Source: Daphnia pulex (Eukaryota > Arthropoda > Branchiopoda > Diplostraca > Daphniidae). From it: 64,000 nucleotides of DNA. Numbering within the stretch: position 1 is the stretch's first letter; every line of letters starts with the position of its first letter. The translations under genes and the position numbers were made by a program. The notes under the pieces are model-generated. The model did no database searches. It was not told where the DNA came from and saw only the letters and a list, made by a program, of their open reading frames with translations. The stretch lies in the NCBI RefSeq assembly GCF_021134715.1, contig NC_060025.1:7502001-7566000 (forward strand), written 5' to 3'. Of the stretch, positions 3,251 through 39,621 are shown in pieces.

Positions 3251-4334
3251 CTACACAGGAGAAATGTTGGAATCGGGTAAGAATCGTAAGTTATCATGAC
3301 TGTTCTTTCGGGCAGTGACGCTGTGATACTTTTGATCCAAAAACTGAAGACGACCATCTAGATGATTGAGGAAACGAAACGCTTCTTGAATTCTTTTCTG
3401 GCACACGACTCGGTTGCGCACATTTTGATGTGGAACAGGAGGACCATGTTGCGGCTTTGTCAACGTATTATCTTCTACGATGACGCGATCGTTTTTATGG
3501 TTTAGGAGGTAATCGATTTTGTCTTCTGAATCTTGTAACTTTAATTTGCACATCTCAAGAGCAGATTGAGATTTCCCCAATTTGTTTTGGAGTTTGGTTA
3601 TCTCGTCATTCAAGTCAGTTGACATGCGTTGGAAAGATAGGCAATTCTCATCCGTTTGCGTTTCAGCTAAACTAACAGCTGGAAGAGTTTGGACAAACTG
3701 CGTCCTTAAAATCTTCTCATCAATGTCTAGTGTCTGCGATTGCGCGTTCAAGAGCAGTTTTTTAGGAGACTCGTCAGTGCATTGGCAAGATTTGTTTGCA
3801 AAGGCCTTGCTGGATATCTTGCCAAAAGCATCCACTACCCAGTTGAGCAAACATGTTTTCCCATCATTACTAGGTACCATGTTATCACTTGTTACACCTA
3901 AGGGATTTAAGAGGTCTTTCCACTGACACTTGTCCAGATATTGGGGACTGGACTGTTGGATAGATAAGCACTCACTGGCGAAAACAGATGAAGTGTAGAA
4001 CATTTTGTGATGCTTGAGGTATTCATAAATCATAACATTAATGGCGTCATCCTTTGGTGAGAATTTCACTTGTTTTGAAGTTGATCCCAGTTCCGTTTTA
4101 AGTTTTTCAACCATCCTCATTCGAAGAAATGATTGTAGTTCTCCCATAATTCCTTTTTCCTTTAGCCTGAAAATTTATTCACATTATTAGAAAACTGTAG
4201 TCATTGATGTATGCTATCTCTTTAATACAACACTTTTAAACAACAAAAACCATAAGGACTCACCAATCGAATAGAATCAACTTTAATTTGTCTCGATCCA
4301 TAAATCGATCCCCTTTAAATGACACATCACTCAT
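3251..4334 (-). CDS. OFD1/FOR20-like LisH-domain centriolar protein
   Basis: Two exons, 4264-4334 and 3251-4166, join within a Trp codon (GATTG|G) to give 328 residues. The N-terminus reads DKLKLILFDWLKEKGIMGEL followed by FLRMRMVEKLKTELG, the helical pattern at the start of OFD1 and FOR20 proteins. Then comes a LisH-type segment, INVMIYEYLKHHKMFYTSSV, at about residues 65-85. Residues 180-235 are heptad-like and probably coiled coil (DEITKLQNKLGKSQSALEMC). OFD1 and FOR20 act at centrioles and in cilium formation. Human OFD1 is about 1,000 residues with long coiled coils and FOR20 about 170, so this protein is intermediate. It may be a short OFD1 or a derived FOR20. Family membership is from recalled similarity; the orthologue is not settled. 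Confidence 0.72.
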
Positions 4335-5074: not shown

Positions 5075-8000
5075 ATGGATCGTGGCGGTTCACATAAGGG
5101 CTATGTACGTACAAAAAATGACAAAACAGGATCTGAAGTTCGGAAAAGATCAATCGAGTTGGAACATGTGACGAATAGAAGAGAGGGGCAGTATAATGCT
5201 GCTCTAGATTCTATGGAAGATGGTACAAATGAATCTCTAGTAAGTGGGTGCCAAGAGGAGAAATTTGTTCAAAGCAATAGCACAAAATTAACAGGCGCTA
5301 AGAAAGACCTCTACGACCATGTAAATAAGACCTTAGATGTTCCACATTCTTTACATCCTGTGACTAAGTATTGTTTCTTTACAGAACCCAACCTTATTCT
5401 TTGATGATGGTGTCCGAAAAATTGATTTTGTACTAGTGTGGGATGAATTAATACCTTCAAATATTTCTGAGCAAGCTGATTTCAAGAGAGATGTTTTTGA
5501 GAATAACCTAGAAAAAGAAGGACTTCAAATCGAATATGTGGATACCCCTGGAGTTTCACTGCATTTCATTAAACTGCATGCTCCTGATGAAGTACTCAGA
5601 CGTTATGCAGAAATCTTGAAACTCAGAATGCCAATGAAAAAGGTGCACAATTTTGATTAAGAAATATCCATACCTATATCATTCCAAGGTATTTTTAGGT
5701 GGAACAAGATGTGATCAACTGTGTTGGTTCAACCTCAATGGAATTCTTGTTAAAAGTATAAACTAACAGTCTAACACTAGAAAATTGTGTATTTATTAAA
5801 TTAACTGACCATGATTTTTATTTAAAGATCCCAGGAATGTTACAATTCCATAATGCAACCAACGAAATCGTGAGTGAAGTGAAATCTGGTTTCGATCGTA
5901 TACTAGATTACTTTCGGCCAGACCCCCTTTTATTCCCAGTGAAATCACAACGTTTTTCAGCTGTCTACAGTCGGGATAAAGAATATCTGTAACAAAATCC
6001 GAAAGTATTTTTAACTGTTTTGCAAATGTAAATTTCTTAACATTTCTTTGATAGGTTTAACGCGGAAGATGAAGATTTTTTTACATCATCCATTCGTTCG
6101 CGAATTGTAGACTTCATTCTTAAACGCAAGCGCTTCAAAGAAGAAATTGACGATGAATTTGCTTTTGGTATCGAACGTTTGCTGACTGAAGGAATCTATT
6201 CAGCTGCATATCCACTGCATGATGTAATGCCAATTTTTTCGAATTATTTATTCTTTATATATCTAATAAGCGGTTTCTATGTTACAGGGTAGTGATCATG
6301 TGGAGGGTAATTTGCGCAGTCTGCTGAGAACCGAGTGGACGGCCTTAAACAAATTACATCGCTATCAGCCATTGGACTATGTTAAGGATTACTTTGGCGT
6401 CAAGATTGCATTGTATTTTGCATGGCTTGGTTTCTACACGCACACTCTTCTCTTTGCTTCCGTCGTTGGATTACTTTGCTTCCTATTTAGCTTCCTGTCT
6501 TTGCAAAACAACATCCCCAGTAACGAAATTTGCTCGGGGCGATTCAATGTCGTCATGTGCCCCATCTGTGACTATTCGGGCGATAACTCTTGTGATTTTT
6601 GGTACCTTTTTGAAACGTGCTTACATTCAAGAGCCGCTTACCTTTTCGACAACGGAACTACAGTCTTTTTCGCCGTCTTCATGTCCTTTTGGGCCGTTTT
6701 GTTTCTGGAAATGTGGAAACGTTATTCTGCCGAGATCACTCATCGTTGGGATTTGACCGGTTTTGATCACCAAGAAGAACATCCGCGGCCGCAATATCTT
6801 GCACGTTTGGCTCACGTCACAGCCAAAAGAGTGAATGTGGTAACGCAAACACTGGAACCACGAGTACCGTTCTGGCGAATCAAATTTCCAGCCGCGCTCT
6901 TGTCCATGTAACAACTAACATTTAATAATTTAGAAACAATTAATTTATGATTTTTTATTTTAATTTGTCGGACCAAGATCTTTGATCCTTCTTCTCGTCT
7001 CAATGGCAATGGCAACTGTTATTGGAGTCATTCTCTACCGCATGTCACTGTTGGCGTCGCTTTCTATTCACAACGATCAGAACATTACAGCCAATGCTAT
7101 GCTGATAACAACTGCCACAGCCGCCTTCATTAATCTTTGTTGCATCCTGCTTTTCAACAGATTCTATGAAAGTACGAAATTTATCACATAAAATCCTTTA
7201 GAATTCAAACCGAATTTTTAAATTGTTTTATAGAAATCGCCCTGTGGCTTACGGAACAAGAGCTTCCTAGAACTCAAAGTGAATTTGAAGACAGCCTGAC
7301 GTTGAAGATGTATCTATTACAGTTTGTTAACCATTACGCTTCTATCTTCTACATCGCCTTTTTCAAAGGCAAATTCATCGGTTATCCGGGAAAGTACAAC
7401 CGTTTCTTCGGATTTCGTCAAGAGGAGGTTGGTTTCAATTCCTGAGTGGAATTATTAAAATTTGATCGACGATTAAATAAATTCTATCGGTAAAACACAG
7501 TGCGGCACTGGCGGCTGTCTTGTGGAATTGTGCATCCAACTTGCCATCATTATGGTTGGAAAACAGGCCATGAACACCTGCATGGAAATGGTTCTACCGT
7601 AAGTTTTAAGGCGGTATAATCAGTGAATTCAACTGACGTGAGATAATTTTTTCTAGGATGGTTTTTAAATGGATTAACAAGATACGAGTTCAAACTGGAA
7701 TGGGCAAACAGCCAAAGGAAAGTCAAGCTTACAGAGCTCAGTGGGCCAAAGATTATCAATTAGTGGCTTGGGGTAGTGAAGCTCTTTTCGCCGAGTATCT
7801 TGAAATGGGTAAATAAATGTCTAATTTTAATTCATTAATTTCATTTTTAAATTGACTTAAATTTTTCTCTCTAGTTTTGCAATATGGGTTTGTAACCATC
7901 TTTGTGGCTGCTTTCCCTCTTGCGCCGCTCTTCGCGCTACTCAACAACGTACTTGAGATGCGATTGGATGCTCGTAAGATATTGACTTTGCATAGAAGAC

Positions 8001-8898
8001 CAGTGGCTCAACGCGTGAAAGATATTGGGGTCTGGTACACCATTCTCGACTGTCTTGGCAAACTGTCTGTGGCCACAAACGTAAGTTAAATAATTCCTAT
8101 GCGTAATGTGGTCATAATAGAATGTGGTCGATCTTTTTCTAAAGGGGCTGATCATTGCGTTCACATCCGATTTTATCCCTCGGCTGATTTACACATTGAA
8201 ATATAGCCCAGATCATTCACTTGAAGGATACGTCAACTACACTTTGTCTTATTTCAAAACTTCCCACTTTAATCATACGCAACAATTATTTAACGGGACT
8301 GAGGTTGTGGAGGTTTGCAGGTCTGGTTGATTTTATCATTTTTTCATGACTTAATTTGTTTTATTACTATAATTTTAAATTTTGAATGAATAAGGTACCG
8401 TGATTTAAGGGAACCTCCTTGGATCCGAAACAATGAATCTAACCCCAACCAGTATGAGCTGACTGCCGACTTTTGGTACATCCTAGCGGCACGTTTGACT
8501 TTCGTCCTAGTCTTCCAGAATGCCGTTGCTCTCGTCACCATGGCTATCCACTGGATTATACCTGATGTACCACGGAAGCTCTCTGAACGCATACGCCAAG
8601 AAGCTTACTTTACCAATGAAATTATTATCAAGCAAGAAATGATTCGAGCTCGTGGAACAGTTCGTGGTGCCCAAGCTGCTAGGGTATACAAATCACGCAT
8701 AGGTTTCGATTCTGTTATTTTTATTAATTTTTATTGCATTTTAACATACATAAGGGCGATTCTACGGCACGGCTTCTTCGTCCGCGTTCTTACGTCGAAC
8801 CCCAAAACGAACCATCATATGATGATGGAGTATTATTCAAGCGCTCTAAATCTTCATGTCCTCGAATATCATCTAGTAAAAATATTGATGCCGTTTAA
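5075..8898 (+). CDS. Anoctamin (TMEM16) calcium-activated channel or lipid scramblase
   Basis: Fourteen exons: 5075-5320, 5385-5642, 5699-5755, 5828-5988, 6055-6223, 6288-6907, 6978-7171, 7234-7427, 7501-7598, 7657-7808, 7875-8080, 8145-8320, 8395-8683, 8755-8898. They total 2,964 bases and encode 987 residues. A cytosolic N-terminal dimerisation region ([16 protein letters not shown]) precedes the ten-helix anoctamin core. The signatures [40 protein letters not shown] and FTSDFIPRL are present. All six calcium-site acidic or Asn residues known from mouse TMEM16A have counterparts: N658, E662, E712, E715, E744 and D748. The protein should therefore be calcium-gated in a membrane. The tail [11 protein letters not shown] and [17 protein letters not shown] resembles ANO1 and ANO5. 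Whether it conducts chloride or scrambles lipid cannot be read from sequence. The 57-base third exon is in frame and could be skipped; its inclusion is less certain than the rest. Confidence 0.95.
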
Positions 8899-9432
8899 AC
8901 TAAATTTTGGCTAGTCCTTTTACTTCAAAAAAAGCCTTCAATCTTCAATGTTCCTTTTACTATCTTATCGTTCGCCTATTTGTCGAAAGTTGAAATTGTT
9001 AAGAGCTTCATTTTAGTATTTTTACTTTTTAAATAATTTTTATGTGTGATAACTTTTCCTTTTACACTTTATTACCTTGTTCCCAAATATGTTAATAACC
9101 GGTTGCTTGCTTTATAGATCTAACTATTACGCTTTTGAATCTTCAATTTTGTATCATTGACTGCCTTTGCTCTCTCTAAATGTGATGATTTAAACCCATG
9201 TTTTGAGAATTATACTAAGGTATACTATAAAATATTACTAATTTCTTTACTAGTTATATATTTATTAGACTTAGATGTATATTACAATGGAGATAAAGTC
9301 ATAAACTGAAAAATTCAAATTTGCTTTCCCGGCTTTGCCCTGAAGACGTCTAGCGGATGAAAAGGTAACCTCAAAAATCGTCTGCTTTCTCTATTGACAA
9401 CTCACGATCGGAAATTTGTATGTTATTGTTTC
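8899..9432. other. Anoctamin 3' flank, no gene
   Basis: AT-rich 3' flank of the anoctamin gene running to the retrotransposon target site. The segment GGATGAAAAG followed by GTAACC near 9356-9369 resembles the end of a 5' UTR exon and a splice donor. It may be the original first exon of PSMD9, with the retrotransposon lying in the following intron. No other feature is seen. Confidence 0.35.
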
Positions 9433-9448
9433 ACAATTGTCAATTCAT
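9433..9448 (+). repeat. Target site duplication, left copy
   Basis: The 16 bases acaattgtcaattcat recur exactly at 11122-11137, on either side of the retrotransposon fragment. This is the duplication expected from target-primed insertion, and it fixes the left boundary of the element at 9449. Confidence 0.9.
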
Positions 9449-11121
9449 CATCTGTAAAGCCTCCTATGCCCCCTCTCTCCGTTCCTTGTCATCGTTATTC
9501 AAAAGCCTAGTGCGTAGCCGCATTGACTACGGCTTAATTATATACGGCTCAGCCAGCAAGTCCCATCTCAACAAAATCGACGTCGCCGCTAGATCTATTC
9601 TCCGCATCATCCTCGGTTCAAAACCCTCTTCTCCTACGGAAGTCATTTACGCCGAATCAAATACTGAGCCCGTCGCCTACAGAAGAGATTGGCTCGCCTC
9701 CAAATATGTGATTAACCTCAGCTCAAACCCCAGAAATTTAACGTTCAACTCAATAAAAGCTTTGTTCTCATCCTCCGACCAATGGCCAACGAGATGCTCC
9801 CCATGTCTGCTCTCAATCTGCTCCAATCTTAAATTAAAGAATCACAACCTGTTTAGCCTCTCCTCTGACATCACCTACCCGTCTTCCATTCCCCCTCCCC
9901 CATGGTCTCCCCCTCTCTTTGAATCTAAATGGTTCCCTCTCAAAAAATCAGCCGCCTCAATTAATCCACAGCTCACCTCTATCATATTCAACTCCCTCGT
10001 GGAAAATATACCCCCGCCCGACATCATCATCTTCACCGACGGCTCTGTCAAACCAAGCCCTCCTCGCTCTACATGCGCCATCTTCATTCCCGCTCTTAAC
10101 TGCTCTAAATCCTGGCTCCTCTCCCAAGGTTCCGGTATATTTACCGCCGAACTCTACGGAATTCTAAAAGCACTCGAATCAATCTACGCTCTAGAACAAC
10201 TTCCCCCTTGCATCCACATTTTCTCAGATTCCAGCTCCGCCATCAAGGCCCTCTCGGCCCCCATATCCCCAATTCATAGGTGCATCTCGGAGATCAAAAA
10301 TCTCCTCAATTGTCTCCTCTCTAGTGGCACCAAAACAATTATTTACTGGATTCCCAGTCACTCCGGTATTACCGGTAACGAAATAGCGGATAAACTCGCC
10401 TCCGACGACAGCGACCCCTCCTCCAGAAGCCTAATCGAAAATTCCCTATCAACAGGGGAACTCATCTCGTCATTGAAACATTCTTGGGAACAATCGCTTC
10501 TAGCTCACCTTCACAAATGCAAAAAGCCCTGCGTTCAAATGAGAACCAAGCCTGGCTTCATCCCATGGCACCACTCCAAAGACAGAGCAACATCAACTTG
10601 CCTTCACCGCTTGAGAAACGACCACAACCATCTAAACGCGTTCGCTCACCGCATCGACCAAGATGCTGACCCGAGCTGCCGATTTGGCTGCCCAGCCATC
10701 GAATCCACAAAACATGTCTTAATTGATTGTCCTACCCATCACGCTCATCGCCTTAATCTCATCCGTTTCCTCAACTCAAATCGTCTCCCCTTGAACCCTC
10801 AAACGCTCCTGGGCCTCGACCCCTCAATCAGCCCAAAAACTCAATTTAAACTCAACAATCTCCTGTCATCATACCTAAGCAAAACGGGCCTCCGACTTAT
10901 CGCATAATTCTCAAACCTACCTCATCTCCTCCCCCCCCCCTCTTCATCTCCATCAAAAATCAAACCAAAAGCTCCGAAACACAGTATTCATCCTCGCCGG
11001 TGCATGAGGGTCCTCCAATAATTTATTCGGAAGACCAGATGTCAGCCTTAAATCTGGCTCCCCTGGATCCTAGATGCCAAGGCAGACGCACCTAAATTCT
11101 CACCAACCAACCAACCAACCA
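9449..11121 (+). mobile_element. 5'-truncated non-LTR retrotransposon (LINE) with RNase H domain
   Basis: An open frame continues to the TAA at 10905-10907. The first part (RIDYGLIIYGSAS, AARSILRIILG) is the region that follows reverse transcriptase palm motifs in LINEs. An RNase H domain follows, with all four catalytic acids: D in FTDGS (about 10038), E in FTAELYGILKAL (about 10148), D in IFSDSSSAIKAL (about 10227) and D in ITGNEIADKLA (about 10388). The C-terminus has a Cys/His segment, CRFGCPAIESTKHVLIDC. The 3' end is a short CCAA repeat (about 11101-11121) instead of poly-A. Endonuclease, gag-like ORF1 and most of the polymerase are missing, so this is a dead-on-arrival copy. The RNase H domain suggests the I, R1 or a related clade. 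The open frame and exact target duplication indicate a recent insertion. C-rich codon use differs from neighbouring AT-rich genes. Confidence 0.93.
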
Positions 11122-18312: not shown

Positions 18313-20606
18313 ATCTTGAGTGATTCACTACCGTCGATGGACAGTTTACTGTAGAAAGTCTTTCCCTGTCATTATATCGACGCTAAATACACCTATTACA
18401 CACTAGGGTCTAAAACGCTTTAAAAGAATTGGGACCAATTTTCGGGATAGAATTGAATTTTTTTTTTCGCTCTTTCTATAAAAAAGAGGTCTTTCAAAAG
18501 CGCAATTCAAAGTGGCAAAGATTACCATACACATAATTTCTGTTCTCAAAAAAATAACACAGACAATATTCTAGAAAATCTAGGATTGCACAAACGATTT
18601 TCACTGAAAACTACTTCATGACCTCAATACGAATATACGATCGGCAAAGGGTACAATAAAGATTACTGCTTATTTTTTTTTACTTTCTAATGGTGATGGC
18701 GTAAAAGCTAGATTCTAATATTTCCTAATTTATTAATTTCAAGCAAGTTCCTAGGTTTTCAGAAATCGATACTTGTTGCTGTATACATAGAGAAAAAAGT
18801 TGGACAATTAAAATATTCTAAATTCCTTTCGAGATAGAAATGCTAAACGTGGTGCACGTGAAGTTTAATTTCCCCAGGTTGAAACTTAATCGTTACTCGA
18901 AAAAACTGAAGAAAAAAAAAAGGAAATTTGGGGAAGAGTTGGAAGATTTGAACTAATCTAACGAATCAATTCGACGGAAAGGCTGGGAAAGGCAATTTTA
19001 AGATATTCACGGACTCCTTGTAGGACGCATTTGGTAAACTGTGGACGAATATTGTAAATTAAGGTAACCTGCAGAAAGAGGAGCCGGTGAAATTCAACGA
19101 AGACGATAACGACTGGAATACATGACAAAGGAAGTTACCCACAACAAATTTCCACAGTGCACCTATAAAGATTCGAGTGGGTGGAAGCTTAAGAGAAATA
19201 TCCCTAACAGAAAAACAGTAGAGGTCGCTTGTGCTTCACAAATCTTCGGCCAGATATGGGAAGATCGTCAGACATCTACTTGGTCGAAATAAAAAAAATT
19301 TTGTTATACGTAGTAGATCATGTTTCGTTTGATATTACAAGATAATTAAACAGTGAATCATTTACACAATTCGTCGTTGGAAAGCGTAAAAGAAACCTTC
19401 CTCTTCTCATTACTTCTACACTCTCAAAATCCCATCATTTCATATTCCTCCAACAGATTAGTAACAAAATCAGACATGCTATTGACATATTGCTGTTCAA
19501 TGATCACTTCCAATAGAGCTTGCTGAAGCTCACTAATGCGATCAGAATGACGCGAGTCCTATAAAATTATTGGTCATGAGAAAAGAAGGTGCTAACAAAA
19601 AGTAAATTTTTTAAATTACTGAATTTGTTTGGAGTGTAGATTCTTGGGTTTGCCGAAGGTTTGCCTGGGTAGACAAAGGAAACTGTGAAAGCTGCTGTAA
19701 AAAAGGATCAGCTGGCACAATATCATCAATTGACTGGATTATTTGTTCATCATAGTCATTGCTAGATCTGATGTTGTGGATAATTGAGCTGAATGGTTGC
19801 ATACATAGCGGGCATTTAGTTTTTTCCTGAAGCAAAATTTTAAGAAAATATTAGGGCTATTGATAATCTAGTTAGTCTCTTTCTAAATTTGTGATTAATA
19901 CCTTGGACCATCTAAACAAACAACTGTAGCAGAACTCATGAAGACAATTATTGGCAAAGCACTTGTTTTCAACCTTTCCTAGACATATTGCACATGGTGA
20001 ATCTGATGGCGCTGTCCACTTCTCATCAACAGAATTCCCTATAAAATGTAATAATAGATTTTACTACTTGAATAAAAATTAAGCACATTTGTAATTTACT
20101 CATGAAACTCATGATGGATCGTTTTTAAAGCTAGGAAACAAATTGCAAACAGCAAACAGTTTGAGAGGATTTTATTTTTTCCACTCAGACTCGATACTCG
20201 ACGATGCCAAACACAGTAAGTTTTGGATTAGGACTTTAGGAGTTAGGACTACTATTTATGTTATCTTGGTTTAATATTTTTTTCTACATTTGATTTTTCA
20301 ATTGCTTTTTTGTTGTTAGAAAGTTTTACAATTTACATTTGATTAAGATTACGCTGTTTCACGATATCTTTATTTGTGATTTTGAGCTATTTTTTAATTT
20401 TTCTAAGCAAATAATCCAACGAAAAACAACGATAAATTTTTTTGTATTTCTTTTGAATCAATCTAAAAAAATTTGAGTATGAAAAATCATCAAAACTATT
20501 ATAATCTGCATGTAATCTGCAACAGCGGCCATACTAGAATTTCATGGCAACGTCTTCTTGATGGAGCAATTTTATGCAACACAACATAAGGTTTTCAAAA
20601 ACGTGT
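18313..20606. repeat. Segmental duplication, copy A
   Basis: This 2.29 kb block matches 22443-24639 in the same orientation, with point changes and small indels. The match starts at atcttgagtgattcact and ends at ttcaaaaacgtgt. It carries a whole Topors-like RING gene and its upstream region. Copy A has an extra insertion of roughly 130 bases near 20150-20290. Sequence from about 18313 to 19250 is duplicated non-coding DNA. Confidence 0.92.
19424..20112 (-). CDS. Topors-like RING finger protein, copy A (shortened C-terminus)
   Basis: Four exons, 20100-20112, 19902-20038, 19620-19826 and 19424-19558, give 163 residues. A C3HC4 RING spans the second and third exons: CAICLGKVENKCF, CLHEFCYSCLFRWSK, then KCPLCMQPFSSIIHNIRS. 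The CLHxFCxxC...WSK...CPLCxQPFxSIxHxxR pattern is that of Topors, an E3 ubiquitin and SUMO ligase of the nucleus; the function is taken from the family. Full Topors proteins are several times longer, so only the RING part and a short unique tail are present. Compared with copy B the last exon carries a small indel, so the shared VEVMRRGR segment falls out of frame and the protein stops at EMMGF. Splice sites are intact, so it could still be expressed. Confidence 0.8.
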
Positions 20607-21246
20607 AAAAAAATACTCTCAAAGCAACAATTTCCTCCTTTTTTTTTTTGCTTTTGATGTAATTAACGGATCATCGCACAGCGATAAGCAGAAAACCCCT
20701 CCCACACAAGACCGACAATCTTACACACAAATGCAATGTCATGTTTTGAGGATTGGCAGTTGGCACGAACGGCCGTGACGTGCGAATTTGTTTGCGACCT
20801 GGTAAGTTGCATTATTAGTAGCCGTTTTTGTTTGACAGGAATGGCATCGAAAAAAAATATCGAAGAGACACTGAAGAAACACTCATAAATCGAGAACTCA
20901 AAAGTCAAATATTTATATAGCCCTTGATTCGTTCATCCACACGTATACAGAAACAGCAGAGGGGTGTAAAGTATTACCAGTTTCACACACACATTAATAA
21001 TGAATCCGCATTCACAAAAGCGTTCTTTTCATTTTCACTTTACATATTATATATTTACAGACACAACTTTGAAGGGGTTGATTGACGGGCTCCGAATCTA
21101 CAGGGATTCGATGAAATGACTGGCAGGTTTGACTCCGCTTCTCCACAGCGACTTGGCTTTCGGTTGTTGTTGTTGTTGTTGCAACACGATGGTTTCAGCT
21201 CAGATGTCCAACAACACTAGATCGATATGCGGTCGGCCAATTGTCT
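20607..21246. other. Spacer between copy A and the receptor pseudogene
   Basis: Holds a (GTT)n run at about 21163-21180. On the minus strand there is a Gln-rich reading, QQQQQQPKAKSLWRSGV, that may continue the cytoplasmic tail of the receptor pseudogene before a stop. The sequence gatgtaattaacgga at 20657 resembles gatgtaattgacgga near 16957, hinting at a larger duplicated unit. No gene is supported. Confidence 0.35.
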
Positions 21247-22442: not shown

Positions 22443-24639
22443 ATCTTTAGTGATTCACTATCGTCGATGGACAGTTTACTGTAGAAAGTCTTTCCCTGTC
22501 ATTATATTGACGCTAAATACACCTATTACACACTAGGGTCTAAACGCTTTTTAAAAATTAGGAAACATTTTCGGGATGGAATTGAATTTTTTCGCTCTTT
22601 TCTATAAAAAAAGGGTCTTTCAAAAGTGCAATTCAAAGTCGCAAAGATTCCCATATACGACATTATTTCTGTTCTCAAAAATAACATAGACAATATTCTA
22701 GAAAATCTAGGATTGCACAAACGATTTTCACTGAAAACTGCTCCATAACCTCAATACGATCAGCAAAGGCAAAGGGTAAAATAAAGATTACTTCGTTTTT
22801 TTTTTTTACTTTCTAATGGTGATGGCGTAAAAGCTATATTCTAATATTTCCTAATTTATTAATTTCAAGCAAATTCCTAGGTTTTCAGAAATCGATACTT
22901 GTTGCTGTATACATAGAGAAAAAAGTTGGACAATTAAAATATTCTAAATTCCTTTCGAGATAGAAATGCTAAACGTGGTGCACGTGGCGTTTAATTTCCC
23001 CAAGTTGAAACTTTATCGTTTCTCGAAAAAACTTAAAAAAAAAAGAAAATTTGGGGAAGAGTTGGAAGATTTGAACTAATCAAACGAATCGATTCTACGG
23101 AAAGGCTGGGAAAGGCAGTGTTCAGAGATCCACGGACTCTCTGTAGAACGCATTTGGTAAACTGTGGACAAATATAGTAAATTAAAGTAACCTGCAGAAG
23201 GAGGAGCTGGTGAAAATTCCACGAAGCCGATAACGACTGGAATATATGACAAAGGAAGTTCCACAACAAATTTCCACAGTGCACCTATAAAGATTCGAGT
23301 GGGTGGAAGCTTAAGAGAAATATCCCTAACAGAAAAACAGTAGAGGTCGCTTGTGCTTCACAAGTCTTGGGCCAGATATGGGAAGATCGTCAGACATCTA
23401 CTTGGTCGAAATAAAAAAAATTTGGTTATACGTAGTAGATCATGTTGCGCTCGACATTACAAGGTTATTAAACAGTGAATCATTTACACTATTCGTCGTC
23501 GGAAAGCGTAATTTCATCAAAAATGGGATGAAATCTTCCTCTTCTCATCACTTCTACAATCTCAATATCATTTCTGTTGTCTGTATCCAACAGATTATCA
23601 ACAATAGCAGCAGAAGAATTGGGATACATGATATTTTGCCTTTCATTGATCAACTCTAATAGAGCTTGACGAAGCTCATGAATATGACCAGAATGACGCG
23701 AGTCCTATAAATTATTGGTCATAAGAAAAGAAGGTGCTGTCTTCTACAAAAGGTAAATTTTTTAAATTACTGAATTTGTTTGGAGTGTAGATTCTAGAGT
23801 TTGAAGGTTTGCCTGGGTAGACAAAATAAACTGTAGAAACCGCTGTAAAAAAGGCACATCTGAAACAATATCATCAGTTGACTGGATTGTTTGTTCATCA
23901 TAGTCATTGTTAGATCTGATGTTGTGAATAATTGAGCTGAATGGTTGCATACATAGCGGGCATTTTGTTTTTTCCTGAAGCAAAATTTTAAGAAAATATT
24001 AGGGCTATTGATGATCTAGTTAGTCTCTTTCTAAATTTTTGATTAATACCTTGGACCATCTAAATAAACAACTGTAGCAGAACTCATGAAGACAATTATT
24101 GGCAAAGCACTTGTTTTCAACCTTTCCCAGACATATTGCACATGGTGAATCTGATGGCGCTGTCGAAGACTCATCAACAGAATTTCCTATAATAATAATA
24201 AATTTTACTGCTTCAATAAAAGTTAAGCACATTTATATTTTACTCATGGAACTCATGATGGATCGTTTATGGAGCTTAGAGACAAAGTACAAACCGCAAA
24301 CAGTTTAAATTTGATTGTTCGATTGTTTTTTGTTGATACAGTACTTGGTTAGAAAGTTTTACAATTTACATTTGATTCAGATTACGCCGTTTCACGATAT
24401 ATTTATCTGAGATTTCGAGCTATTTTTCTAAGCAAATAAATCCAACAAAAAACAACGATAATTTTTTTTATTTCTTTTAAATAAATCTAAAAAATCTGAG
24501 TAGGAAAAATCATCAAAACTATTATAATCTGGAAATCTGCGCATGTAATCTGCAACAGCGGCCATATTAGAATTTCATGGCAACGTTTTCTTGATGGAGC
24601 AATTTTATGCAACACAACATAAGGTTTTCAAAAACGTGT
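22443..24639. repeat. Segmental duplication, copy B
   Basis: Direct repeat of 18313-20606 at a distance of about 4.1 kb. It contains the second Topors-like gene. Its right edge falls inside the 5' leader of the RING-WD40 gene, about 50 bases before that gene's ATG, so copy A lacks the RING-WD40 gene. Confidence 0.92.
23489..24256 (-). CDS. Topors-like RING finger protein, copy B
   Basis: Four exons, 24244-24256, 24050-24186, 23771-23974 and 23489-23704, give 189 residues. RING ligands are C20, C23, C36, H38, C41, C44, C55 and C58. The same Topors hallmark CLHEFCYSCLFRWSK and KCPLCMQPFSSIIHN is present. The C-terminal exon (HELRQALLELINERQ, DTDNRNDIEIVEVMRRGRFH) is longer than in copy A and ends TLSDDE. 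Family knowledge suggests E3 ubiquitin or SUMO ligase activity. The gene is head to head with the RING-WD40 gene: the two start codons are about 430 bases apart, so a shared bidirectional promoter is likely. The first coding exon is only 13 bases. Confidence 0.83.
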
Positions 24640-24689
24640 CTAAAACCAACATTTTCCTCTTTATCATATCTTTACAAATTATCAGTGAC
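24257..24689. promoter_or_regulatory. Bidirectional promoter region between two RING genes
   Basis: The 433 bases separate the start codons of Topors-like copy B (-) and the RING-WD40 gene (+). Most of it is repeated next to copy A at 20113-20606, apart from the insertion there. There is no clear TATA box; the region is AT-rich with a short GC island, gcaacagcggccat, near 24552. Confidence 0.5.
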
Positions 24690-27264
24690 ATGGACGCAGA
24701 AGAAATGGCTTCTTCCAGGGAAGAATCAGAAGATCTCACTTGCTGCTCCGTTTGTTTTTTGCGATTTGACATGGTTGAACGGAAACCAAAATTTCTTCCA
24801 TGTTCACACACTTTCTGCTTAAGTTGCTTGAAGGTATCAAACTTATAAACTATTCTGTTTCTCCACTGAATATAAATTATGATATATTTTTTTAGTTAAT
24901 GGCTATAGATCATGATGGAAAGATGATTGATTGCCCAGTCTGCCGTAAACCGTTTTCAATTGCTTCAGTTGAAATTTTACCAAATAACATGTATGCTCTT
25001 CAAATTATTAAGATGAGCAAGATCATGACAAATGTTCAAAAGCTCATGTTGTAAGTTTATACATGTTTTTATTAACTTCGTCAAATTTATCAAATTGTTG
25101 TTGGTTTCTATTATTCAGTACTCCACGCTGGTGTTTGACTTGCAAGGGTGTAGGCAAAGAATCATGTATAACAAGATAAACAATTACTGGAACTAAATAG
25201 TCATACATTTTTTACTTTTGTATCTTTACAGGTTTTAATAGCCATTCCACAATCAGTTTAGCTCAAGATGGTGAAGAATTACAGAGAAAGATTCAGGATA
25301 GTGAAAAGAATTTGAATGATGCCCTTGAGAAAAGAGCAAAAATTCAGATTCATCATAATGCTGTTTTAAATTCTCTAAAGGAAGCAAAATATTCAGCTAA
25401 GAAAGAGGCTGAGGAAAACACTCAGCACACATTTACCTTAATGACAGCCTTAGAGAGTATTGACAAACTAAAAAATGGAAAACAAGATGTTCCAGAGGCC
25501 AGAGAAAAAATTGAAGCCATCTTTAGAGAAGCAGAAAATGAGCTCCAATCGGCCTCTCAATTGATGTTTCAGTATGAAGATCAAACCGAAATTCGTGTTT
25601 GGATTGAAAAAGCTCCATCTTCAGGCAAAACTTGTTTTCTTAGCCCGAAACTTCCTGCTTGTAACTCGGGTAAGTGTTCGCTAATAATTGAGTTATCTTA
25701 TTCATTTCGTCAACTTTTTTTTATTTCTTTAAGATTTAGTTAAGTCGACGGAAACCAGAAGAATTTGTCCCAGCGAAAAGAAGGAGAAGATCATGTGTTG
25801 TGCATTGAATCCAGTTAGACCAGTTCTAGTTTGTGGTTTGGAGAGTGGGAAATTGTGTTTCTTTCAAGAAGTACACGACTGTGACTTCGAACCATTTTCA
25901 GATTGGAAGGGCACAATTGTTGAAACGTTGTCGACCAAACTGGTTTCATTTATTGCTTGGGACGTAAGTATAATTTATGTTGTTTTACCATCCAATAATA
26001 GATTAAAATTTGTTTTCCTTTTGAAGTTGGAAGGTACTAGTTTTGCAATCGGCTTTGTGGAAGGCCTCGTTCAGGTGTGGAATCGAAACTGTGAAAACAT
26101 CTTTGGACTCCAAAATCATACCATGACGGTTAGCTCAATTTCATGGAATCATAATAAAGAAGCTCTTGATCTTTTTCTCACTACAAGTATTGACATGGTA
26201 ATCTAAGTGCTTTTTATATTCAGAATCTGTGATTTGTCAAGTTTTTATTTAGTCGGTTGCCGTGTGGAGTGCCACGTTAGAAACCGTAGTGCAACAGTTC
26301 AAATTCCAATCGGAAGTCTGTGACACCGTTTGGGTCAGCGCTGATTCGTTTGTATGTTTTAACGAGGATAATATTTTTGACATGCATCAAATCGGGAAAG
26401 ACAAACCAATACGAACATTTCGCGATCTTAACGTAATACCTCCGTGTTTGATGCATTACATATGATGTAATTTGTAGCTTATAAAATTTCTTTAGGGCAC
26501 GCTGATTCGATTGTGTTTTAGAGGTCGCCTTGCCTCTTCTTCTGATGACGGATGCATCAAGGTAGGTTTTTTTATTTCAAAATCGAGAAATAAAATAATT
26601 TAACATTTATTTCAAAGATTTGGTCATTGGAAGAAGATAAACCTGTGCGTCAGTACTCCACGGATTCACCTGTTTACTGTATTGACTGGATTCCGATAAA
26701 TGAAAAAGATGCTGATACTGGCGATAATGCTGGCTGTCAACAACTTCTTGCCAGGTAAAGTTGACTGTGAATATATTGTTTAATTGTTTTTTTAATTTGG
26801 TCTTTTAGTGGATTAGAAAATGGGCTGGTTCACATATGGGACGTTTCTGGAATTTCTGACTCACCACTTGAAACACTTAAAGGACATACCGAGCCTGTCA
26901 ACATCGTTTACTTCTCATGTTGTGGAAAATTATTAGCGACATTGTCTGATAGAAATAACACGTTAATTGTGTGGTCCACGAAGGTATTTGTCGTCTCGTA
27001 TTTTACGGCGACCTCGAGTTTATTTATTTTACTTATTTATTTTCCACTTTAGAGTTGGGAAAAAGTTTATGAAACTATCATAAATGAAGGTAGTGATTCT
27101 CGTGAGCCATACTATCTTTCTTGGAATATTAACAAGGTATTAGCGACGGCTAATGGGGGGCGAGAAGTGAGTTGGCTTTCTAATGTTACTTAACAAATTT
27201 AAAATCGCCCAGTTTAAAAAAAGGTGTTTTTCATACTTAGGTAACGGTGGCTGAATTTGAATAG
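24690..27264 (+). CDS. RING - coiled coil - TBL1-like WD40 protein, unusual fusion
   Basis: Twelve exons: 24690-24833, 24896-25050, 25119-25165, 25232-25669, 25734-25963, 26027-26197, 26253-26432, 26496-26561, 26618-26754, 26809-26983, 27053-27166, 27241-27264. They give 626 residues. The RING ligands are C19, C22, C38, H40, C43, C46, C61 and C64. A partial B-box-like group (C105, C108, C116, H120) follows, then a coiled coil at about 128-230. Residues from about 264 form WD40 repeats: VQVWNRN, VAVWSATLETVVQQF, KDKPIRTFRD, DDGCIKIWSLEEDKPVRQY, GLENGLVHIWDVSG and NTLIVWSTKSWEKVYE. These follow the order and wording of TBL1/Ebi propellers. TBL1 normally has an N-terminal LisH domain and no RING. 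The TRIM-like front suggests an E3 ligase choosing substrates through the propeller; that role is inferred. An in-frame upstream ATG at 24594 is possible, but 24690 best fits. Confidence 0.83.
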
Positions 27265-29031: not shown

Positions 29032-30924
29032 ATGTTTAACTACACTCTCTCTTTATTCCCCGTCCAAGTAAGGGTAAGGATGATCATTCTAACTGCCTGC
29101 ACCTTTACTGCAAAACTCTTTACGCAAATGTTGCAGTTCTTTTGGCCACTGAAACAGGAACAAAACGCAGCAGTACGTCTTCAACCAGAAGAAGAAACCC
29201 CAAACTCAAAGACAAAGATTTTTCAGCCCGTCCTCGACGAGTTGCAGACAGCAGCAGTAGATTTACGGGCAACCGAGGAAATTGCAAAGAATACATCGTC
29301 GCTAAAAGCTGAATTAAACGAAGAGGATGACGAAGCGCATGAGACAATTCATTTCGACGACTCAGAAATGCCCGACGAACTTCAAATTTCAAACACGGAA
29401 GAGGAGCGAGATGAGCAAGTAGATAAGATGGACCCATACTTCGACCATCCCCTATCACATTATTACATAAAGGGATCGCACAACACCTATCTACTTGGCA
29501 ATCAATTGATCGGAGAAAGTACAATCGAAGGTTACCGCCGGGCCATGGCGAACAACTGCAAGTGTCTGGAGCTGGACCTGCAGGACGGACCGAACGGATC
29601 ACCCGTTATCCACCACAGATGGACGATGACTTCAAAAATTGATGCCCGAAACGTTTTGCGATACGGAATCAAACCCAACTTCAAAAGTAGCGACCTACCC
29701 TTGATTTTGTCGATGGACGACAACATCAAGTCAGACGAACAGCGAAATGTCTTCATCCAAGACATCTGCCAGATTTTGGATGAATTCATCTACATAACCG
29801 ATTACAAGGAGCTAAAATGTCTGCCGTCGCCAAACGAACTTCGGGGTAAAATAATTATCATGGCACCCAGAAGCAAATGGGGTCAATTGGCAAACATCTG
29901 TCAAGCCGTTCCCTACTCACAAAGCTCACAAAGTGGAACATGGTTTGAGGTCTCTTCACTGTCGGAGAACAAACTCCGTCGTCTCTTACAAACGTCACTC
30001 GAACCGAACACAGCAGCATTACGCAATGACAAGAGAGGAACCGAAACACATCAGAAAAAGAATCTTCGTCAAACAACAGCAAGTCAGTTGATAAGGTACT
30101 ACCCCGGAGGGCAGCATATACTATCCGGCAACCATGATCCCATTCCCGGAATGAATGTCGGTTGTCAAATCGCCGCCATGAATATGCAAACGCACAGCAG
30201 TCAATTGGCTATATACGAAAGCAAGTTCCGGGAGAACGCTGGAAATTGCGGCTATGTCCTCAAGCCGGAAATCTTATTAAATTCGCACGAATTTCAAGAT
30301 ATAATCCCTGTTCATCCAAAGCGGATCACCATTAAAGTAATGAAAGGAATTTTACCTGATAAAAGCAAAACGACCTTTGTCAGCGTTCGTGTCGACGGGG
30401 AGAAAAAGGACAAGATGAAGAAGAAAACGAAAAAAGTTAAGAGCGATGATGGACTGAGCCCCGAGTGGAACGAAGAGTTGGTCTTTGATGTGCAGCATCC
30501 AGAACTTGGTTTTGCTTTGTTCCAAATCAAAAAGTCAATGTATTTCGGGATGATAAATTCAACCGTTGCCTCTTATGCCATTCCAATCGATAAAATGGTG
30601 AACGGGATAAGCTCGCTTATTCTACACGACCAGTACCTGGAAAGTATTGACGCTACTCTTTCGGTGGAGATCAAAATAGAAGACCCAAAACCGGAAGGAG
30701 TTGAAGTTAAAGGTGGTACAATAAAGGACAAATTAAAGGGCAAACTGCTAGCTCTACGTGAAGCGATAAAGAACAAGATATTTGCTTTGAAACAAAAGGG
30801 AACGTCGTCGACCAAATATCCGAAAGGAGCATCCGTGACTACAAAACAGCCTGGCTTTCTAACGAGAGTATTAGGATTTCTCCATCCCAAAGATCGTTTC
30901 ACCAGTCGTCGGTTCGTGAAATAG
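29032..30924 (+). CDS. Intronless phospholipase C-like protein (X, Y and C2 domains)
   Basis: A single 630-residue open frame without introns. After a hydrophobic and acidic N-terminus (1-130), the X domain starts at about 136 (DHPLSHYYIKGSHNTYLLGN). The Y domain covers roughly 305-415 (YYPGG, GCQIAAMNMQTHSSQLAIYE, CGYVLKP). A C2 domain follows at about 430-555, then a basic Lys-rich tail. PH and EF-hand domains of PLC-delta are absent. Against PLC-delta1, both catalytic His are kept (H150, H195), as are E180, D182, S311, R355 and Y357. The ENH calcium-site triplet is DDN (229-231), and the two Lys that bind PIP2 phosphates are replaced near 277-279. Activity is therefore uncertain; it could be weak, altered in substrate, or only a scaffold. 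Lack of introns among intron-rich neighbours suggests origin by retrocopying. A poly-A signal lies at 31087-31092. Confidence 0.88.
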   Translation: MFNYTLSLFPVQVRVRMIILTACTFTAKLFTQMLQFFWPLKQEQNAAVRLQPEEETPNSKTKIFQPVLDELQTAAVDLRATEEIAKNTSSLKAELNEEDDEAHETIHFDDSEMPDELQISNTEEERDEQVDKMDPYFDHPLSHYYIKGSHNTYLLGNQLIGESTIEGYRRAMANNCKCLELDLQDGPNGSPVIHHRWTMTSKIDARNVLRYGIKPNFKSSDLPLILSMDDNIKSDEQRNVFIQDICQILDEFIYITDYKELKCLPSPNELRGKIIIMAPRSKWGQLANICQAVPYSQSSQSGTWFEVSSLSENKLRRLLQTSLEPNTAALRNDKRGTETHQKKNLRQTTASQLIRYYPGGQHILSGNHDPIPGMNVGCQIAAMNMQTHSSQLAIYESKFRENAGNCGYVLKPEILLNSHEFQDIIPVHPKRITIKVMKGILPDKSKTTFVSVRVDGEKKDKMKKKTKKVKSDDGLSPEWNEELVFDVQHPELGFALFQIKKSMYFGMINSTVASYAIPIDKMVNGISSLILHDQYLESIDATLSVEIKIEDPKPEGVEVKGGTIKDKLKGKLLALREAIKNKIFALKQKGTSSTKYPKGASVTTKQPGFLTRVLGFLHPKDRFTSRRFVK

Positions 30925-34833: not shown

Positions 34834-36540
34834 ATGAGGACAGCAGTAAGTTTTGAAGATTGACATTGTATAATACAGTGATTATTACTGAAATTACCAC
34901 GTTTTTATAGGCTATTGTGTTATTACTGGTCGCGGCAGCTTTGGCTGCTCCGCAATACCAGCGGACCAAACCTAATCAAGGGGCTGGATCCATTTCACCG
35001 GAACAGTGGGCCTCTCTGAATCCAATTAAACCTGGAAGTGGCAACGATGAACTGTCGAAGCAATGGGCTCGCTTCCTCGAGTAAATGATATATAAGACTA
35101 TAATTAGATCATAATAAAATAAAATTAACTGATATTTTTTTTCTAGCTATCTGCCGTGGTTGAAAGGACCTACTGGTCCCGCTGGACCACCAGGCCCACC
35201 CGGAGGAGCTTCATCTTCCTCTTACGGCTACGACCAGCCTAAATACGTTGCTGGACCCCCCGGAGCACCTGGAGCACCTGGAGCTCCTGGTCCTAAAGGC
35301 GACAAAGGAGACGCCGGTGAACCTGGTGCCAACGGAGAAGCTGGGCCCCAAGGAATTGCTGGACTTGACGGAGCTACAGGACCTCAAGGTTTGAAAGGAG
35401 AACAAGGCGCTGATGGAGCCCCAGGTGTCGCTGGACTTAATGGTGCTCCCGGAGAAAAGGGAGAAGCTGGATCAAATGGTGCAGATGGTGCCCCCGGAGC
35501 TCCTGGATCGCCTGGAAAAGATGGATACAACGGAGCACCTGGCCCAGTTGGACCTAAAGGAGAAATTGGCGCACCTGGTATCACGATCGAATCTAAAATC
35601 CCAGGCCCTCCCGGTATGTTCCACTTCAATTCTAAATAATAACAATGCCAATAACTCGTGAAATTTTATTTCATCACTGTCTTTTTTTTATCCAAAAAGG
35701 CGCAACTGGATATCCCGGTAAAGACGGAGCTCCTGGCGCAGCTGGTAGCCCCGGCCCTCAAGGAAATGCTGGGCCTCAAGGACCAGTGGGACCTGCCGGC
35801 AAAAACGGCTACGCTGGTAGCCCGGGCATTGCTGGACCTAAAGGTGAACCAGGCAAACCAGGCTACAACGGAGCACCAGGTAAAGACGGACTTCCCGGCG
35901 CACCAAGCACTCAACCCGGCCCGGTTGGACCACAAGGACCCGTCGGCAAACCCGGCTACAATGGCGCTCCTGGAAAAGACGGTGCCGTTGGCCCAGTAGG
36001 CGCTCCAGGCAAAGATGGACTCAACGGCGCTCCTGGCGCTACTGGTAAATATTTAATTTAATTATCTATTAATTGCTTGACACTTTATTTAAATTTAAAT
36101 TTCGCTTTTGTGATTTAGGTCCTCAAGGAGAGCAAGGTAAACCTGGTAAGGACGGTTATCCTGGCGCTGCTGGAGCCCCTGGAACACCCGGAGCTCAGGG
36201 ACCTCAAGGAATCCAAGGTGAACAAGGACCCGCTGGAAATCCCGGCAGCATTGGTCCCCAAGGAGAAATCGGTCCCGTCGGTCCCGCTGGACCTGAAGGC
36301 AAACCTGGCCAAGCTGGCAAACCTGGATATCCTGGACCTGTAGGACCAGTTGGACAGATTGGACCTGTTGGACAAGAAGGCAAACCTGGCCAAGACGGAG
36401 CTACCGGTGCCGTCGGCCCTGCTGGTCCACCTGGCCCACCAGGTGAAGCGGCCACTAAAGCTTCTTATCCCGCTCCTGCCTACACCACCGCTTCACCTTA
36501 CAGCAGACCGGCTTCCAACGGCAACTGGTACCGTAATTAG
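34834..36540 (+). CDS. Secreted short-chain collagen 1
   Basis: Five coding exons, 34834-34845, 34911-35080, 35147-35613, 35700-36044 and 36119-36540, give 471 residues. The first coding exon holds only four codons (MRTA). A signal peptide ([15 protein letters not shown]) is followed by a short non-collagen region ending [16 protein letters not shown]. Gly-X-Y repeats then run to about residue 445, with interruptions such as [12 protein letters not shown] and [10 protein letters not shown]. The C-terminus is short and Tyr/Pro-rich ([19 protein letters not shown]). No NC1, fibrillar C-propeptide or laminin-like domain is present, so it is not a type IV or fibrillar collagen. It is likely an extracellular or cuticle-associated collagen. 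Pro in Y positions is a substrate for the hydroxylase encoded at 40567-43108. AATAAA lies at 36815-36820. Confidence 0.92.
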
Positions 36541-38006
36541 TATGGGCCGAGTTTGATTCCAGCAAAAACGGACTTTGAAACAAACAAACCAATCCCCGCA
36601 TGTATAATTATGTAGAGTAATAATTATTAATTATTGTGTAAAAATGAAACAGTGCGGAAATGGCCCAAATCTCTGATGATGACAAAAAAATATATAAACC
36701 CAAGTTTCATATGAACCTAATGCTCTATTGGAAACTTAATGAAGCACAACTATAGACACAATTTAAGCTTTCCCTTTTCCTCGTCGTCGGGTATAATATA
36801 ACTGCCACAATCAAAATAAAGTATAAAAAGTACTTCCCCTTTTCTCACGGGCCTACTTATATAGCTCTCTAGTTCAGACAAGTCCGGTGGTTTGTTTTAT
36901 AAGTATTGCATAAAGTTATATATATTTTTAGATGGCTGAACATCGATTTTTGTATCGGGAATCTGCGCTAGAGCAGTATATGACTTATAATGTAGTCACT
37001 TTGCTCCTCGAAATCACATCAATAGACTTTTAAAATTTCATCTTCGGTGACTCCGAAATAATCTCTTTTGGATTCGGTTTTATTACGACTCATAAAATGT
37101 TGTTGCCAAGTTATATAGTTTCCCTTATGCTTCACTTTTGCCATTCTCTTTTTGGTAAAGCGAATTCGCAAAATTGATGATAATTCAACTAATGGCATTA
37201 GTGCTAATGCGAATGTGGGCGAACGCCAATCTGGTTGAAATGCAGCATGGTCCATTTAATAACAAGTCTGATTACTATGTTAGGAAACTGCTGGTGGTCG
37301 ACCAAAGGCACAAAACCGACAGCGGCTGAACGTTTTGGGCTTTCCGAACAGCGATCCGGGCCATTTTTGCAAACGGTAAAGCACACACATAGTCATAGCA
37401 CCGATGAAAATGTCAAGTTATCTCTGAATTACTTATACATCCTGACCGCTTTACACGTAATAGCTGTTTGAAGAATGAAATGCAATACGAAACAAACTCT
37501 TATTCTTTAACCGACCTTAACGGAAAAAAAAAATTGTCTATCTCTAAAATGGGAGAGCTGGAAATGTATAGCTTTAGCAGAAATATTAGAGCCGCCCTAT
37601 AGCTTTGGGGAAAGTTGATCATATGTTTTTTTCTTTTGTTAATAGCGAAGTAGAGTACTAGACTTGAGGTGTAGTGCGCTTCTGGAAATTCCGACAGCTG
37701 ACTTTAAAGCGAAATTCAAAGAAAAAAAGAGAAATGGTGTCAATTAACGCAGAAAGCCCCTCCGATAGTCTGCAGCTACTACTCTCGGACTATGTGTAGC
37801 CTACACACACACACACACACACTGAATCCTTACGTACAGCAACTCTTTTTTTTTTTTTCTTTTATCTTTCGTTTCTCTAAATAACTCAAGATTTCACTTT
37901 TACAGTACGTGGGCATTATATACACTTTGAGTCCATCCTATTCGTTCAGCCATCTTCTTTATATACGTTAGACGCGTTCTTCCACCTTCACTAGACCGCC
38001 TAGACG
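36541..38006. other. Spacer between the collagens
   Basis: Includes the collagen 1 3' UTR with AATAAA at 36815-36820 and a (CA)n run at about 37803-37822. A minus-strand 78-codon frame at 37019-37255 (MDHAAFQPDWRSPTFALALM, ending DEILKVY) has no recognised family; it is noted but not called as a gene. Confidence 0.4.
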
Positions 38007-38085
38007 TTTAAATAGCCGGCTCTCTGCCGTCAATGATCATCAGTGTTGAGCCAGCAGTGTTCTGAGAAACATCTTCCGAAACAAG
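38007..38085 (+). promoter_or_regulatory. Core promoter and 5' UTR exon of collagen 2
   Basis: TTTAAATAG at 38007-38015 precedes TCATCAG at 38037-38043, 30 bases apart. A leader exon ends ACAAG|GTAGTA at 38085, and a second leader piece starts after gattacag near 38201. The matching layout at collagen 1 shows the pair arose by duplication and may be co-expressed. Confidence 0.6.
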
Positions 38086-38259
38086 GTAGTATACAAGAAA
38101 ATTGTTTCAAGTATTAAAGCAGTAAAATAAGTCGACTGTTATAATATACTTTGGAACTGCAATTTCTCTAATCCTATCATTTTTAAAATTTTGCGATTAC
38201 AGACTTTGCTGTTTCCACTTACCTGTCAACGAAAAGATAATAATTTCAAATATCTAGCC

Positions 38260-39621
38260 ATGAAGGCAGCGGTGAGTTGATCATTTTTTTAAATAGGAAA
38301 TTGATTGACGTCAATCTAATATGCAAAACTATTGTGACGTTACCAGGCGATTCTCGTGTTTTTGGTTGCGGCAGCCACTGCTGTTCCTCAATATGGATTC
38401 TTCCCTCAGACCCCACAGGCTCCACCACAGAGTTCTTACGGCGGCAACAACAACGGCCAGGCTGGAGGAAATCCTCAGCAAATCGAAGACATCCAGAGAC
38501 AATGGGCTCAATTCACTGCGTAAGTCGCATGTCATACTTGTACAGGACAACCGGAAAATCACATTCTTTTTTTGGATGATTACAGAAAGATGCCTTGGCT
38601 ACAAGGACCTCCTGGACCACCTGGACCACCAGGAACTAGTTCTGCTGCTAGTGGACCTCAACAGCCAGTAGTTGGTCCTCCTGGTCTTCCAGGAGCACCT
38701 GGCGCTCCTGGACGCAAAGGAGAAGCTGGCAATCCTGGTAGTCCCGGATTTGCTGGTAGACCAGGAAATCCAGGACCAGCTGGACTTAATGGAGCGCCTG
38801 GCGGACCTGGACCAGCAGGCGAACGTGGATCGAATGGAGGCCCTGGCGCTCCGGGCGGGCCCGGTTTCCCTGGAGCTAAGGGAGCGGCTGGAAATAATGG
38901 AGGACCTGGTCTCAATGGAGCTCCTGGAGCCCCTGGCAAAGATGGCTTCAATGGATTGCCCGGATTTCAAGGACCCAAAGGTGAAGCTGGCGCTCCCGGC
39001 ATAACTTTGCCTTCAACCGTTCCCGGTCCCGTCGGCGCTCCCGGAGCCCCTGGTAAAGACGGATGGCCTGGATCAGTTGGCGCGCCTGGCCCTATCGGCC
39101 CAATCGGAGGACCTGGCCCAATCGGACCTGTTGGAAGACCTGGAACGAATGGATTCCCTGGAGGACCTGGCCCTAAAGGTGAAGCTGGAAGTCCCGGATT
39201 CAATGGATTACCTGGCAAAGACGGACGCAACGGCGCACCAAGCACTCAACCCGGCCCAATTGGATCAATTGGCCCCGTTGGCCCAGCTGGCTTCAACGGC
39301 GCCCCAGGAAAAGACGGTCCACCTGGCCCAGCTGGTGGATTAGGACCTCAAGGTAAACCCGGAGCGCCCGGCTATCCAGGCGGCCCAGGCCCAGCCGGTG
39401 CTCCAGGAGGCCTCGGTCCTCAAGGACCATCTGGACCTCAAGGAAAACCAGGATCGCCCGGCTATCCAGGCCCCGCTGGCCCTGCTGGCCAACCTGGACA
39501 AGCTGCCGCCGCTCCAGCGCCAGCCCAGCAGTCTTCCTACCAAGCGCCAGCTCAACAGTCTTCCTATCAAGCGCCAGCTCAACAGTCTTCCTCCCAGTCG
39601 CAATTCGGCTACGGTCGATAG
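38260..39621 (+). CDS. Secreted short-chain collagen 2, paralogue of collagen 1
   Basis: Three coding exons, 38260-38271, 38347-38519 and 38586-39621, give 406 residues. The four-codon first exon (MKAA), the signal peptide ([15 protein letters not shown]) and the pre-collagen segment [20 protein letters not shown] parallel collagen 1. Interruptions are shared too ([13 protein letters not shown] and [10 protein letters not shown]), so the two are tandem paralogues. Collagen 2 lost or never gained two introns in the Gly-X-Y part. Its C-terminus carries three tandem QQSSYQAPA-type units ending SQFGYGR. The function is inferred to be structural and extracellular. AATAAA is at 39820-39825. It ends about 950 bases from the end of the convergent prolyl hydroxylase gene. 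Confidence 0.92.

Follow-up and report, generated by a model that had tools for sequence, protein, structure and literature searches.

The plus-strand gene at positions 24690–27264 of the window, by which we mean the whole 64-kb stretch of Daphnia DNA that was analysed, is likely to encode a COP1-like single-chain RING E3 ubiquitin ligase with a coiled coil and a substrate reader derived from TBL1. In the mechanism proposed from the sequence, a charged E2 would dock on the RING, dimers or higher oligomers would form through the long coiled coil, and substrates would be selected and held by the propeller of TBL1 origin, with the protein as a whole working like COP1 or TRAF7. According to an excerpt of the cited source, COP1 contacts the E2 via its RING, dimerizes via its coiled coil, and takes up substrates via its WD40 domain (PMC12808801). 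By analogy, ligase activity, oligomerization, and substrate binding are predicted for the Daphnia protein. As far as could be seen, the novelty lies in the placement of a TBL1-type propeller within a known layout of RING, coiled coil, and WD40.

Gene Model and Reading Frame

The gene model was rebuilt, and the in-phase exon chain and 626-residue product proposed in the first-pass annotation were reproduced exactly. The model comprises 12 exons and 11 GT-AG introns and ends in a single terminal stop codon; all introns are 54–74 nt long. The G+C content is 34–50% in the exons and 18–32% in the introns, every exon being richer than every intron. Stop codons interrupt both alternative frames of every exon except exon 3 (47 nt), in which one of the two stays open. 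Codon usage favours the frame of the model in 5 of the 12 exons, with one additional tie, and thus gives the frame weak support. The phase of the joins is likewise weak evidence, since in-frame joins are common by chance: 17 of the 92 GT/AG pairs tried between exons 4 and 5 give an open in-frame join, and alternative splice sites around exon 3 allow it to be shortened or skipped in frame (25 chains include a middle exon, and 5 join exon 2 directly to exon 4). A search against Rfam gave no matches at the gathering threshold, and no genes were found in the tRNA search.

RING Domain, Second Cys/His Group, and Coiled Coil

The C3HC4 RING occupies residues 19–64 (24744–24943) and is interrupted by the intron at 24834–24895. 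Exon 1 (24690–24833) holds the start codon (MDAEEM) and the first part of the domain, and exon 2 (24896–25050) contains the remaining part followed by a linker. The zinc ligands are complete, with the spacing C-x2-C-x15-C-x-H-x2-C-x2-C-x14-C-x2-C, and the last Cys is followed by an Arg at the linchpin position. In the N-terminal half of the protein, the Pfam RING models PF13445, PF14634, and PF00097 scored above their cut-offs; the spacing and these matches bear out the earlier assignment of a C3HC4 RING. The closest solved RING sequences in the PDB were those of TRIM32 (37.4 bits) and TRIM2 (35.5 bits), with TRIM56 also among the nearest.

A second Cys/His group, described in the first-pass annotation as B-box-like, consists of C105, C108, C116, and H120. 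The first two residues of this possible zinc group are encoded by exon 3 (25119–25165), C116 spans the junction of exons 3 and 4, and H120 is located in exon 4. With E up to 1, the B-box HMM matched neither the N-terminal half nor the piece covering exons 3–4, and exon 3 could be shortened or skipped in frame. In these B-box searches, weak matches above about E 0.1 were possibly lost to the HMMER filters.

The coiled coil is encoded by exon 4 (25232–25669), where it is followed by a linker. In a 107-residue stretch of this exon, the hydrophobicity power at a period of 3.5 was 106, a value reached by none of 2000 shuffles. The AlphaFold model of the 145 residues of exon 4, folded alone from the single sequence, contained helices at residues 6–80 and 86–117 (about 25249–25473 and 25489–25584), with a pLDDT of 70.7 and a pTM of 0.39. 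The heptad signal together with the two predicted helices agrees with the coiled coil claimed at first. A Foldseek search with this model returned 85 matches at E up to 10 and none at E up to 0.001.

The suggestion of a TRIM-like front therefore stood in part: the RING is nearest to those of TRIM32 and TRIM2 and a coiled coil is present, but a B-box was not detected, and by definition the protein is not a TRIM. The TRIM label was accordingly rejected. A separate proposal concerns descent and is compatible with the ligase mechanism, namely that the protein comes from a TRIM32/TRIM2-like member of the TRIM family in which the B-box was lost or reduced and a new C-terminal domain was gained. The three nearest solved RINGs are consistent with such an origin, as is the pair of helices in exon 4, the longer of which comes first, an arrangement that resembles the TRIM coiled coil; against it stand the negative B-box searches described above (E up to 1; N-terminal half and exons 3–4) and the lack of a fold match to exon 4 at E up to 0.001, and we regard this descent as unlikely. 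TRIM32 and TRIM2 carry an NHL propeller, so that the likeness in RING sequence is accompanied by two differences, the Daphnia protein having no detectable B-box and a WD40 domain in place of the NHL propeller.

Probable Continuity of the Gene Across Exons 4 and 5

Intron 4 (25670–25733) separates the RING and coiled coil from the propeller. It is a 64-nt A+T-rich intron similar to the others (25% G+C), its GTAAGT donor matches 6 of 7 consensus positions, and its acceptor lies before 25734 or alternatively before 25740, which keeps the frame as well. Since chance in-frame joins at this junction are as frequent as stated above, the open join between exons 4 and 5 in itself proves little. Another argument, from position, comes from the reading frame of exon 5 (25734–25963), which opens only at 25733 and has its first Met at residue 282 (about 25793). 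The first 20 residues of the exon fall at the position of the opening strand in TBL1XR1's propeller, although the similarity is weak. Because these first-strand residues precede Met282 and the frame opens only at 25733, a complete propeller would need an upstream exon. Exon 4 would be the upstream exon at hand, a point that we hold less firmly than the quality of the donor and the type of the intron.

The locus could instead contain two adjacent genes, one for a RING/coiled-coil protein that retains intron 4 and ends at the stop codon at 25743 and the other for a propeller protein that starts at Met282. The exon-4 frame does read through to 25743, a Met is available at residue 282 of exon 5, and chance in-frame joins at the junction are not rare (17/92). 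Nevertheless, we consider two genes quite unlikely: the residues before Met282 occupy the position of the first TBL1XR1 strand, even if they are only weakly similar to it; no AATAAA or ATTAAA was present on the plus strand between 24600 and 26001; and the gap between the genes would be a single 64-nt A+T-rich stretch with intron-like ends. We infer that one mRNA would cross the 25669/25734 junction and that the gene is probably single and continuous. The splice structure and open frame make one continuous gene from RING to WD40, as originally proposed, the best model.

The WD40 Propeller and Its Probable Relationship to TBL1

The propeller comprises residues 262–626 and scored 62.6 bits against the Pfam WD40 model (cut-off 27). 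It begins in exon 5, which covers blade 1 and leads into blade 2, and continues through exon 6 (26027–26197; blades 2–3), exon 7 (26253–26432; blades 3–4), exon 8 (26496–26561; blade 5), exon 9 (26618–26754; blades 5–6), exon 10 (26809–26983; blades 6–7), exon 11 (27053–27166; blades 7–8), and exon 12 (27241–27264), which supplies the final strand and the stop codon. The TBL1XR1 propeller has eight blades.

Among the best 60 of the 197 PDB sequences matched, TBL1XR1 ranked first (E 6.4e-28), with 101.1 bits for 5naf and 100 bits for 4lg9, followed by bacterial PkwA (85.6 bits) and 2ymu (75.9 bits); lower matches included designed WD40 proteins and WDR5 (about 43 bits). The local match spans residues 64–326 of the 365 propeller residues, so blade 1 and the final strands are covered by the global alignment alone. 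In the global alignment to TBL1XR1, 97 of 338 positions were identical (29%), with a score of 268 and the blades in register, while the start of the propeller was poorly conserved. Rotation of TBL1XR1 by three to five blades reduced the score to 61.5–70, the other, part-register rotations scored 121–262, and the maximum over 200 shuffles was −13.5. The two proteins also have in common the linker between blades 4 and 5 (IGKDKPIRTF in exon 7 versus LGQDRPIKTF in TBL1XR1) and a long loop in blade 6, which is encoded by exon 9 and has the same position in both propellers. The leading position of TBL1XR1 among those best 60 PDB matches and the in-register alignment support the TBL1-like propeller of the first-pass annotation.

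The best Pfam propeller models fell well below their cut-offs (CDC20-Fz, 101.6 versus 200; THOC3, 90.7 versus 305). TBL1XR1 itself matches many of the same general models, and no TBL1-specific model was among the matches listed for the propeller; the assignment to TBL1 therefore depends on the alignment and on the match in the PDB. With E up to 1, the LisH HMM did not match the N-terminal half of the Daphnia protein, while the N-terminus of TBL1XR1, used as a control, scored 39.9 bits. Membership of the TBL1 family was rejected on this ground, as LisH was not detected. The positions of the top face were less conserved than the propeller as a whole, 4 of 24 being kept (17%) versus 97 of 338 overall (29%), the 24 positions having been assigned manually. 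D369 and D370 of TBL1XR1 are kept and Y446 is not. Compared with TBL1, TBL1XR1, and Ebi, the Daphnia protein thus shares the register of the propeller and the similar linker and loop, but has a RING and coiled coil instead of the LisH region and retains few top-face positions. On the preferred reading, the propeller would come from a TBL1/Ebi paralogue whose LisH front was lost and whose ligand face was altered.

The N-terminal domain of TBL1, which bears LisH, binds SMRT and GPS2 and tetramerizes, as stated in an excerpt of the source (PMC3315023). The idea that the Daphnia protein is a corepressor-complex factor, a RING-bearing TBL1 paralogue acting on NCoR/SMRT clients, draws on the TBL1-like propeller and on the retention of D369 and D370, the D370N substitution being reported in a part of the source to weaken the binding of SETD5 by TBLR1 (PMC13385800), but it is very unlikely, given that no LisH was detected, this being part of the region by which TBL1 contacts SMRT and GPS2, and that few top-face positions are conserved. 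For these same two reasons, the role in corepressor exchange suggested in the first-pass annotation was not supported.

Comparison With Known RING and WD40 Proteins

The preferred reading, a single-chain RING ligase with a TBL1-derived substrate reader, places the protein in a layout that has been described before. The first-pass annotation knew of no family with this order of domains; COP1, RFWD3, and TRAF7 combine RING, coiled coil, and WD40, so the layout is not new. "RING finger + WD40" is Class 15 in a survey of human WD40 proteins and is also reported for at least one plant (PMC5172248), and a survey of Drosophila RING proteins lists five with WD40, for example, Light (PMC3166285). RFWD1–3 correspond to TRAF7, COP1, and RFWD3, respectively (PMC10424150, excerpt). 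The features of the RFWD layout were all found in the Daphnia protein, with an N-terminal RING with complete ligands, a coiled coil in the middle, and a C-terminal WD40 domain. No orthology of the propeller to COP1 or RFWD3 was found, as judged from the RFWD3 model and the best 60 of the 197 PDB matches.

By description, TRAF7 is the nearest in layout, having a RING, zinc fingers, a coiled coil, and WD40 repeats; the same description sets it apart, since it has a TRAF-type RING and seven WD40 repeats (PMC10424150, excerpt). COP1 shares the RING, the coiled coil, and the C-terminal WD40 domain, but its propeller is seven-bladed (PMC12808801, excerpt), and no COP1 chain was among the best 60 of the 197 PDB matches to the propeller. 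RFWD3 has a RING and a coiled coil, according to a figure legend, and a C-terminal WD40 domain (PMC6851490, excerpt), whereas the Pfam model of the RFWD3 propeller scored 35.6 bits on the Daphnia protein, below its cut-off of 47, and RFWD3 chains were likewise absent from those best 60 matches. In these comparisons with COP1 and RFWD3, a far better match to a WD40 family already known with RING domains was not seen. Among the open-access papers listed, judged by title and the start of the abstract, none seemed to report a fusion of RING, coiled coil, and TBL1-type propeller.

It is conceivable, though we would not rate it as probable, that an animal lineage, here a crustacean, built a COP1-like ligase by joining a TRIM-type RING and a coiled coil to a duplicate of the TBL1 propeller, and that the product is expressed and has its own substrates, which may include former chromatin partners of TBL1. 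If expressed, the protein would add to the known chains that unite RING, coiled coil, and WD40, and its propeller would stem from a parent that is usually part of the NCoR/SMRT complex. In that case, the protein would show a scaffold propeller turning into the substrate reader of a ligase and would allow testing of whether ligand specificity moved with the propeller.

Related Sequences and Genomic Neighbourhood

In searches with the 626-residue model, 15 stretches of viral contigs and 119 of contigs from prokaryote genomes matched the pattern, and none was confirmed in either collection; as these collections consist of viral or prokaryote records, the misses say little. Within the window, the whole model matched only two other places in a tblastn search at E up to 1, namely RING copies on the minus strand (E 0.032 and 0.13).

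Minus-strand RINGs are carried by both copies of a tandem duplication of about 2.2–2.3 kb (18313–20612 and 22443–24645), in which 11 blocks are 75–96% identical at a spacing of 4.02–4.15 kb. The RING of the first copy was confirmed by Pfam, and both resemble Topors. The right edge of the duplicated segment lies about 45 nt upstream of the ATG of the RING–WD40 gene. An in-frame upstream ATG, located inside this segment, would provide a possible 32-residue N-terminal extension (24594–24689).

Several other features were observed in the window. A 297-residue frame on the minus strand (3254–4144) begins with a sequence similar to LisH_2 (24.7 bits against a cut-off of 27) and is possibly an OFD1-like protein. 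Matches to anoctamin at 6282–6908 and 8390–8911 lie upstream of a 511-residue plus-strand frame with an RNase H domain (9372–10904; 47.5 bits), which is probably the end of a retrotransposon. On the plus strand at 29032–30921, the X, Y, and C2 domains of a phospholipase C are encoded in one uninterrupted frame of 630 residues, the longest open frame listed for the window. Three long collagen-like Gly-X-Y frames follow on the same strand at 35133–39621 (35133–35639, 36073–36540, and 38524–39621).
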